Assembly (NCBI RefSeq): GCF_004768465.1
Contig: NZ_SRMF01000001.1
Coordinates: 1,279,893 to 1,343,892, forward strand
DNA: 64,000 bases
Reading direction: 5' to 3'
Source of the DNA: Natronospirillum operosum
GTDB lineage: Bacteria; Pseudomonadota; Gammaproteobacteria; Pseudomonadales; Natronospirillaceae
Shown here: piece after piece, positions 48,974 to 58,956 of the stretch
Layout: each line of letters begins with the position of its first letter
Position numbering within the stretch: position 1 is the first letter of the stretch
Position numbers and translations under genes: made by a program
Notes under the pieces: model-generated
What the model was told of the DNA's origin: nothing
Database searches by the model: none
Seen by the model: only the letters and a program-made list of their open reading frames with translations

Positions 48974-49008
48974 CCGACTCCTGTAGGCTGTGGCCCTCAG
49001 CCACGCAT

Positions 49009-49072
49009 GGGTGCCCTGCCAGCTCGTTTGCGGCCGTCCCTGGCCGCAAACGGTCTCACAGGGCATGCATCC
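49009..49072 (-). repeat. Second hairpin element, diverged inverted copy
   Basis: Bases 49011-49056 resemble the reverse complement of the 63-base core at 51346 and 58782 (CCCTGCCAGCTCG and CGGTCT shared). Its main stem is TTTGCGGCC/GGCCGCAAA (49027-49035 and 49042-49050) where the other copies have CTGCGCACA/TGTGCGCAG. Both strands of the stem have changed together while the TCCCT loop is kept. Confidence 0.7.
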
Positions 49073-49096: not shown

Positions 49097-49291
49097 CCAA
49101 CTCCTGTAGCGAGGCACGCAAGTGCCGACAATGAGGCGCAAGCCGAATTTGTAGCGAGCGACGCAAGTCCCGATAATGAGGCGCAAGCCGAATTTGTAGC
49201 GAGCGACGCAAGTCGCGATGGGCGGCGCAGCCGCCCTTTATAAGGGGCCTCACGGCCCATCGGCACTTGCGTGCCTCGCTACAGGAGTTGG
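49097..49291. repeat. REP-like block A: 45-base tandem units within a 31-base inverted repeat
   Basis: Perfect 31-base inverted arms (49097-49127 and 49261-49291) enclose direct 45-base units beginning TGTAGCGAG at 49105, 49150 and 49195. Each unit has a GTAG foot and a hairpin with loop GCAA; the stems read GGCAC/GTGCC, GCGAC/GTCCC (imperfect) and GCGAC/GTCGC. A GGGCGGC-GCA-GCCGCCC palindrome lies in the middle. This is the layout of a bacterial interspersed mosaic element. Confidence 0.8.
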
Positions 49292-50965: not shown

Positions 50966-51137
50966 GATGAGTGCTCTCCCTGAGATACTGCGAGGCGGTT
51001 GATTCCGGCCTTTGATGGATGGCAGATGATCAAAAACCATCTGCTAACGCCTTTAGAATAGCTTATTGACAAAATATTTAAAGTCGATTTTCAATGGCGA
51101 GGGTGTCGAGGTTTGGGCACGGGTGGTGATTGGGTTT

Positions 51138-51292
51138 GTAGCGAGCGACGCAAGTCGCGATGGGTGGCGCCAGCCGCCCTTGCTCGGGGCCTGGGGCCCA
51201 TCGGTCTAATCGGGATTTGCGTCGCGTTATCGGGACTTGCGTCGCGTTATCGGGACTTGCGTCGCGTTATCGGGACTTGCGTCCCTCGCTAC
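51138..51292. repeat. REP-like block B with a 20-base tandem array
   Basis: A plus-oriented REP (GTAGCGAGCGACGCAAGTCG, 51138 onward) faces an inverted array. Three 20-base units (TTATCGGGACTTGCGTCGCG and one variant) run from 51207, ending in a complete inverted REP at 51269-51292 with stem GGGAC/GTCCC. The centre between them (GATGGG ... GCCCATCG) matches blocks A and C. Confidence 0.8.
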
Positions 51293-51331
51293 AGGAATTG
51301 GGAGGCACAAGTGGTGCGGCCGCCGCGCGGC

Positions 51332-51422
51332 GGTACCCTGACCGCAGACCGTCTGCGCACAGGGATGTGCGCAGTCGAGCTGGCAGGGATGCCGTTTTTT
51401 GCGTGTCTGCGGTCAGGGTACC
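51332..51422. repeat. Second hairpin element, copy 1 (63-base core 51346-51408)
   Basis: A core of 63 bases is identical to 58782-58844. It holds two hairpins, CTGCGCACA-GGGA-TGTGCGCAG (51353-51374) and GGCA-GGGA-TGCC, the latter followed by GTTTTTT. Here the core is flanked by a perfect 18-base inverted repeat (GGTACCCTGACCGCAGAC, 51332-51349, and its complement at 51405-51422). Confidence 0.85.
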
Positions 51423-51496: not shown

Positions 51497-51542
51497 AATC
51501 GGGACTTGCGTCGCGTTTATCGGGACTTGCGTCCCTCGCTAC
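51497..51542 (-). repeat. REP-like pair at the 3' end of the M23 peptidase gene
   Basis: A truncated unit (AATCGGGACTTGCGTCGCG) and a complete inverted REP (51519-51542, stem GGGAC/GTCCC, loop GCAA, GTAG foot) lie just downstream of the stop at 51560. They are the same words as in block B, in the same orientation. Confidence 0.75.
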
Positions 51543-51559
51543 AACAGTTCCCTGTCGGT

Positions 51560-58498: not shown

Positions 58499-58626
58499 GA
58501 AGACCCCTTGCTACCGCCTGCGCGGATTATGGTTTGCCGAAACTACCGTATTAACAGCATAAACTGTGCCAGTTCCATTCGCACGGCGGCCGCACCACCT
58601 GCACCAATTTTCGATGCAGTCTCATT

Positions 58627-58730
58627 GTAGCGAGGAACGTGTAGCGAGGGACGCAAGTCCCGATTGGGACCGGCGCCCCCCAATATGAAGGGCAGCTACG
58701 CCGCCCATCGCGACTCGCGTCGCTCGCTAC
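58627..58730. repeat. REP-like block C
   Basis: A truncated GTAGCGAG word (58627) is followed by a complete plus-oriented REP (58641-58664, stem GGGAC/GTCCC, loop GCAA). A complete inverted REP follows (58707-58730, stem GCGAC/GTCGC, loop GCGA when read on its own strand). The centre contains GCCGCCCATCG as in block A. The two REPs face each other. Confidence 0.8.
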
Positions 58731-58763
58731 AGGAGTTGGGAGGCACGGTTGGAGTCGCCTGCC

Positions 58764-58860
58764 GGGTGCATGCCTGTCGTGAGACCGTCTGCGCACAGGG
58801 ATGTGCGCAGTCGAGCTGGCAGGGATGCCGTTTTTTGCGTGTCTCACCGGGCATGCACCC
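58764..58860. repeat. Second hairpin element, copy 2 (63-base core 58782-58844)
   Basis: The core is identical over 63 bases to 51346-51408. The flanks differ from that copy but again form inverted arms: GGGTGCATGCC (58764-58774) with GGCATGCACCC (58850-58860), and GTGAGAC with GTCTCAC. It follows block C by 33 bases, beginning CAGGAGTTGGGAGGCAC, the same linker found after block B. Confidence 0.85.
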
Positions 58861-58956
58861 GAGCGTGGCGACGGTCCGATTGGCACAGGCAGACCAAAAG
58901 CCCTGACGGCACCATGCGCAAGGGTCACAGCCTACAACGGCCCCACTCACCAACCA

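Follow-up and report, generated by a model that had tools for sequence, protein, structure and literature searches.

YPAL was reportedly described as a miniature insertion sequence of Yersinia by De Gregorio in 2006, and TwoAYGGAY RNA is said to go back to Weinberg in 2010. The sequence of RU-2, which is the same element as YPAL, was printed for Yersinia pestis (168 nt) by Delihas in 2007 (PMC2759123). YPAL is reported to be mobile, with 3-26 bp of target sequence duplicated beside dyad symmetry, and to be co-expressed with upstream genes, the RNA stability of which it possibly alters (PMC2229807). Binding of CsrA by TwoAYGGAY (RF01731) has been proposed by motif matching (PMC4333381), and Ysr224 (RF02770), a Yersinia sRNA, was counted among the most abundant bacterial sRNAs in a review (PMC9029176).

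The repeat described here occurs in the window, i.e., the whole stretch of 64,000 nucleotides analysed (G000:C1:1279893-1343892, in a 4.34-Mb gammaproteobacterial genome). Judged from alignments, folds and model matches, it belongs, as a divergent lineage, to a single family of miniature palindromic insertion elements that spans the Gammaproteobacteria and takes in YPAL/RU-2 of Yersinia, TwoAYGGAY as a further branch and Ysr224 as the antisense strand. Three entries kept apart in the literature are thereby joined as one family, found in at least 65 sampled genera. No paper linking YPAL with CsrA was found within the literature searched, and the union of these families therefore appears to be new there; the accessible portion of the YPAL/RU-2 literature proposes no CsrA link.

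Alignment and folding of the published RU-2 letters revealed the core AAGCGTCCGCGCCAAGGATGGCGCGGCTCGAGCCTACATGGATGTATTTACGGCGTCTT under long palindromic arms, as in the present element, and a 28-nt stretch of RU-2 (CGAGCCTACATGGATGTATTTACGGCGT) was identical in Marinobacter guineae. Both elements are multicopy and mobile and tend to follow genes, whereas hairpin 2 is followed by the linker TTTACGGCG in YPAL/RU-2 and ACGTTTTTTGCG here, and the window element has other arms and occurs in divergent pairs with REPs. TwoAYGGAY shares with the window element a long outer stem and two A-N-GGA-Y hairpin loops on the same strand, but its second hairpin is longer and its loop is limited to YGG, while G is also found at the second loop base here. 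No match to RF01731 was obtained in the window at the gathering cut-off of 43 bits, or in the genome at E 0.01. In relatives, RF01731 was multicopy, reaching 33 copies in G054, and formed divergent pairs in G010, and mixed divergent pairs of the element type and the RF01731 type were noted at L058 and L065. A place in G005 (L067) that scored 74.6 bits with model R2, which was built from 125 aligned non-window sequences, almost wholly from other genomes, lay inside an RF01731 match. The accessible portion of the literature on RF01731 contains no description of it as a mobile repeat.

The Ysr224 consensus is the reverse complement of the element, and R2 matches the opposite strand there; the reported Ysr224 strand is without GGA loops, unlike the element strand. 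In permissive Rfam scans of copies from relatives, two families fell exactly at the coordinates of the element: TwoAYGGAY, in the same orientation, and Ysr224, in the reverse one. The best Ysr224 score in the present genome was 40.3 bits, on the opposite strand, as compared with a cut-off of 70 bits. The Ysr224 count in the review is probably a count of insertion-element copies on their antisense strand. No Rfam family reached its gathering cut-off in the window, and the permissive list at E<10 was attributed to chance; the R178 repeat of P. fluorescens (PMC2718517) was weighed as a candidate, and identity with it is not claimed. REP and REPIN sequences with their RAYT transposase (GTAG-tagged, PMC3733652) resemble the element as dispersed intergenic palindromes with inverted pairing but differ from it in sequence, the element having a 63-nt conserved core and two hairpins, and the GTAG/CGTC tag of the 20-40 bp REP palindrome was absent at the foot of the element.

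Copies in the window and across the genome

The first full copy (51332-51422, plus strand) consists of an 18-bp outer stem (51332-51349 paired with 51405-51422, GGTACCCTGACCGCAGAC) around a 63-nt core (51346-51408, plus strand; R2 74.6 bits, E 9e-21), and its predicted RNA fold has an energy of -68.2 kcal/mol (z -8.0). The core is laid out as AGACCGT, hairpin 1, CGAGC, hairpin 2 and CGTTTTTTGCGTGTCT, with each hairpin loop of the form CA-N-GGA-Y-G and with AGAC/GTCT extending into arms of at least 18 bp. Both loops of this copy are AGGGAU hexaloops with a C-G closing pair, the first (51361-51366) predicted to be of the CsrA/RsmA type and the second (51385-51390) located 24 nt 3' of it. Hairpin 2 is followed by a T6 tract (51395-51400). 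A plain intrinsic terminator was rejected, since the T6 tract is restricted to this subfamily and TTTACG is found elsewhere.

The second copy (58763-58861, plus strand), within a flagellar cluster in the gap between flgI and flgJ, contains the same core (58782-58844, with loops at 58797-58802 and 58821-58826), identical to that of the first over all 63 bases (100% identity; E 1.3e-26 for the whole genome). As the earlier note had claimed, the two identical cores are framed by different self-complementary arms, those of the second copy being CGGGTGCATGCC...GTGAGAC and GTCTCAC...GGCATGCACCCG (folding z -7.7). The occurrence of the same core in different arms is most readily explained by gene conversion acting on the core. 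The inverted third copy reported at 49009-49072 (minus strand) is real, as indicated by its fold and by an R2 match at 48999-49056 on the minus strand (39.3 bits, E 1e-9), but has diverged and is truncated, retaining hairpin 1 with GGCCAGGGACGGCC but not hairpin 2, which was apparently lost by deletion between two CAGGG words. Stem 1 of this copy was altered on both sides, from TGCGCACA/TGTGCGCA to TGCGGCCA/GGCCGCA, with AGGGA unchanged, also as first described.

A search of the genome with model R1, which was based on 19 distinct copies, gave 82 matches at E<=0.01, 56 of which scored above 75 bits. These numbers exclude the possibility of only two copies from one recent duplication. None of the 80 matches taken into analysis lay inside a predicted gene (codon-scored gene calls). 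Both CANGGANG loops were kept in 60/80 copies and one loop in 19/80; the loops were 24 nt apart in 53 of the 60 two-loop copies, compared with 22-27 nt in other genomes, and the second loop base in this genome was G or T. Covariation was detectable within the genome, with 6/18 pairs changed on both sides and 21 double-changed cells as opposed to 4.2 in shuffled sequences.

Conserved loops within covarying stems

The combination of fixed loops and variable stems was evident from the alignment of 125 non-window sequences from other genomes. Both members had changed in 17 of the 18 core pairs, 96% of pair cells were paired compared with 66% in shuffles, and double changes numbered 532 compared with 146 in shuffles; when structures were slid along the alignment, fewer than 50% of cells were paired. 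The A, G, G and A of the hairpin 1 loop were found in 112/112, 121/121, 118/121 and 121/121 sequences, respectively, while all four bases occurred at the N position. The same four bases of the hairpin 2 loop were found in 125/125 sequences each, although for the contig set the search pattern itself contributes part of this conservation. Since that pattern contained loop 2 and a model had been used to fit the alignment, hairpin 1 was checked without recourse to either, and ANGGA was found in 76 of 106 distinct sequences compared with 12% of shuffles. Hairpin 1, when located mechanically, nearly always carried GGA in its loop.

Among 124 copies from other genomes, 66 arm types (less than 60% identity) were distinguished, and the mean duplex energy of an arm with its own partner was -30.6 kcal/mol as opposed to -9.3 kcal/mol with swapped partners; in the present genome, 14 types gave -29.2 and -16.0 kcal/mol, respectively. 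Arms that differ in their letters and yet pair with their own partners indicate that sequence is free and pairing is constrained. The proposal that the core is conserved while arms vary but stay self-complementary, with structure under selection, is thus supported. The CsrA/RsmA-like loops, the known names (YPAL/RU-2, TwoAYGGAY and Ysr224) and the class-wide mobility of the repeat are what the earlier note missed.

Mobility, neighbours and distribution

The gap between flgI and flgJ is about 105 bp in the congener G001 and 515 bp here, according to gene calls, and the gap between genes for an M23 peptidase and a TraF-like protein is about 157 bp in G001 and about 570 bp here, measured to the corresponding ATG. 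Neither G001 gap contains the element, R2 giving no match there, and it is likewise missing between flgI and flgJ in seven other relatives. With two sites filled here and empty in G001, the element is, on this comparison of sequences, mobile; the flanks in G001 are too diverged for defining the ends of the insertions. On the minus strand of the window, a sequence at 58556-58571 (TGGCACAGTTTATGCT) is similar to a sigma-54 promoter (GG-N10-GC) and precedes flgJ; the inserted composite of element and REP separates it from flgI. G001 retains a similar site and lacks the insert.

Gaps were convergent in 25/59 cases with the element and 3/84 without it in this genome, and divergent in 2/59 and 26/84, respectively. 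In other genomes, for which gene calls were cruder, avoidance of divergent gaps was weaker (12/60 vs 60/185). Nearby copies in opposite orientation were divergent, with 5' ends facing, in 17/17 pairs here and 21/24 elsewhere. Single copies beside co-directional genes were sense in 11 and antisense in 10 cases in this genome, and 17 and 15, respectively, in others. This unbiased orientation gives no hint of selection for sense transcription from the upstream gene.

Blocks of GTAG-type REPs lie 5' of all three window copies, at 49099-49285 for the third copy (motif hits at 49106, 49151, 49196 and 49265), at 51132-51293 for the first (51138 and 51275) and at 58637-58735 for the second (58641 and 58713), and the GAGTTGGGAG-type linker to REP noted earlier was found at all three of these places. 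Another GTAG-tagged block occupies 51499-51543; the GTAG-tagged REP blocks of the window belong to the GTAGCGAGSGACGCAAGTC family. A recognised REP (GTAG-type and related) was present within 300 bp of 52/80 copies in the genome, compared with 8/241 control points, on the 5' side for 47/80 copies and on the 3' side for 18/80. The link is therefore strong but not universal, and while the earlier interpretation of a selected structure is supported, the composite with REP is a tendency, not a rule. The genome contains a single RAYT-like Y1_Tnp gene (G000:C1:498100-498411); co-mobilisation with this gene as a neighbour was rejected, no element being found within about 1.5 kb.

The family appears to be confined to one class among the genomes sampled. 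Matches to R1 were found in 19/57 relatives. R2, which finds all three window copies, matched 73 of 369 genomes sampled evenly across the class (65/272 genera) and 16 of 299 phylum-sampled genomes, all 16 in Gammaproteobacteria; none of the phylum-sampled genomes outside this class contained the element. A contig search with a pattern of the linker and hairpin 2 matched at least 116 sites in named genomes, those among the matches listed being all Gammaproteobacteria (i.e., Stenotrophomonas, Xanthomonas, Lysobacter, Rheinheimera, Oceanisphaera, Shewanella, Alteromonas, Marinobacter, Halopseudomonas, Pseudomonas, Microbulbifer, Haliea, Serratia and others). Phage or plasmid origin was rejected, the pattern being present in 0 of 2.9 million viral contigs and the element in 1/72,556 plasmid records and 5/5,426 E. 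coli genomes.

The paired loops as candidate CsrA/RsmA sites

CsrA/RsmA prefers an ANGGAN hexaloop (SELEX consensus RUACARGGAUGU), and its dimer can span two sites separated by 10-63 nt, the optimal separation being 18 nt or more (PMC7652899). Both core hairpins present an A-N-GGA-N hexaloop closed by C-G, and the 24-nt spacing of most two-loop copies falls within the bridging range; the best conserved RNA feature of the element is a pair of hairpin loops that matches the CsrA/RsmA docking site. The genome carries one csrA of conserved sequence. Among the class-sampled genomes, csrA was found in 68/73 with an R2 match and 245/296 without the element (p 0.016, kinship ignored), and among genomes of good quality in 59/60 and 221/254, respectively (p 0.005, kinship again ignored). 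A divergent pair of elements (G000:C1:342776-343280) is situated about 4 kb from csrA (C1:347485), possibly by chance.

From these features, we lean toward the view that this is a family of mobile palindromes with fixed paired hexaloops, which we infer to be CsrA/RsmA sites acting as dispersed decoys. The GGA strand would be transcribed by read-through from a gene end or as a transcript of its own, and the two loops in the resulting RNA would be high-affinity sites, bridged within each copy by one CsrA dimer. Copies might then tether CsrA to the RNAs in which they lie, with a local effect on RNA fate, and might jointly form a dispersed decoy reservoir of more than 110 potential sites here, whereas a single CsrB has about 18-22. 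Owing to the long arms, the loop pair would be displayed in any sequence context, and a divergent pair would yield a sense copy under transcription from either side. The lack of sense-strand bias (11/10 here and 17/15 elsewhere) argues against a simple 3'UTR sponge, which was rejected on this ground, and the reported Ysr224 strand, being without GGA, also weighs against the simplest sponge. Stem 1, at 7-10 bp, exceeds most SELEX hairpins in length, which counts against recognition by CsrA.

Y1 transposases recognise the hairpins of REP and IS200/IS605 sequences. Recognition of single-stranded DNA during transposition is the main rival: the loops would be read in folded single-stranded DNA by the mobilising machinery, the match to CsrA would be coincidental and the element would be purely selfish. 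Such a role fits the empty sites in the congener, the clustering with GTAG-type REPs, predominantly 5' of the element, the almost exclusively divergent arrangement of inverted pairs, the one Y1_Tnp gene in the genome and the absence of sense-strand bias, but no copy adjoins that gene and no GTAG tag is present at the foot of the element. Moreover, the free and fixed loop positions are those reported for RsmE/CsrA, in both hairpins and at a spacing within the bridging range, and we regard a purely selfish element as unlikely.

A role at 3' ends, as a bidirectional terminator or as a barrier shielding upstream mRNAs from 3' exonucleases, in line with a proposal made for YPAL, and with no part for CsrA, would account for the excess of convergent and the shortage of divergent gaps, for the very stable folds and for the T6 tract of this subfamily, and the co-expression of YPAL with upstream genes, with its possible effect on RNA stability (PMC2229807), points in the same direction. 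A barrier would require the arms alone, however, and would leave invariant loops and the CGAGC linker within variable stems unexplained, while the wider family is without a T tract; the likelihood of this explanation is smaller still. Neutral maintenance, in which template switching at quasi-palindromes keeps the arms complementary and gene conversion keeps the cores alike in the absence of selection, fits the identical cores found in different arms of one genome. Gene conversion within single genomes cannot fix loops and linker across a class while stems vary, though, and template switching preserves stems, not loops, which makes selection-free upkeep quite improbable.

If the loops are decoys for CsrA/RsmA, their closest functional counterparts would be the CsrB/RsmZ sponges, which likewise have repeated ANGGA hairpin loops (CAGGA(U/A/C)G in CsrB) for possible sequestration of CsrA/RsmA, and RsmU of Xanthomonas, a 3'UTR-derived RNA that sequesters RsmA (PMC7694677). 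CsrB/RsmZ and RsmU are single dedicated genes, whereas the element offers two putative sites per copy over about 80 loci. More speculatively, mobile paired sites could tune the regulator by copy number and placement, as an evolvable counterpart of CsrB that can be condensed into an array; we advance this only tentatively. CsrA/RsmA binding, as inferred from the loops, offers a testable function for all three literature entries, and the repeat may spread decoy sites for the regulator through the genome. If so, a common intergenic repeat would be a mobile regulatory binding site, beyond a mere palindrome, and sRNA catalogues that include Ysr224 would in effect be tallying the antisense strand of an insertion element.

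A tandem arrangement was noted at one place in a relative (L273, G594:C1:93800-96400), where six 227-bp units, each comprising the element and a GTAG-type REP, extend from about 488 to 1852 and carry 12 CANGGANG hairpin loops on one strand. From its letters, this array looks like a CsrB-style decoy formed by tandem duplication.
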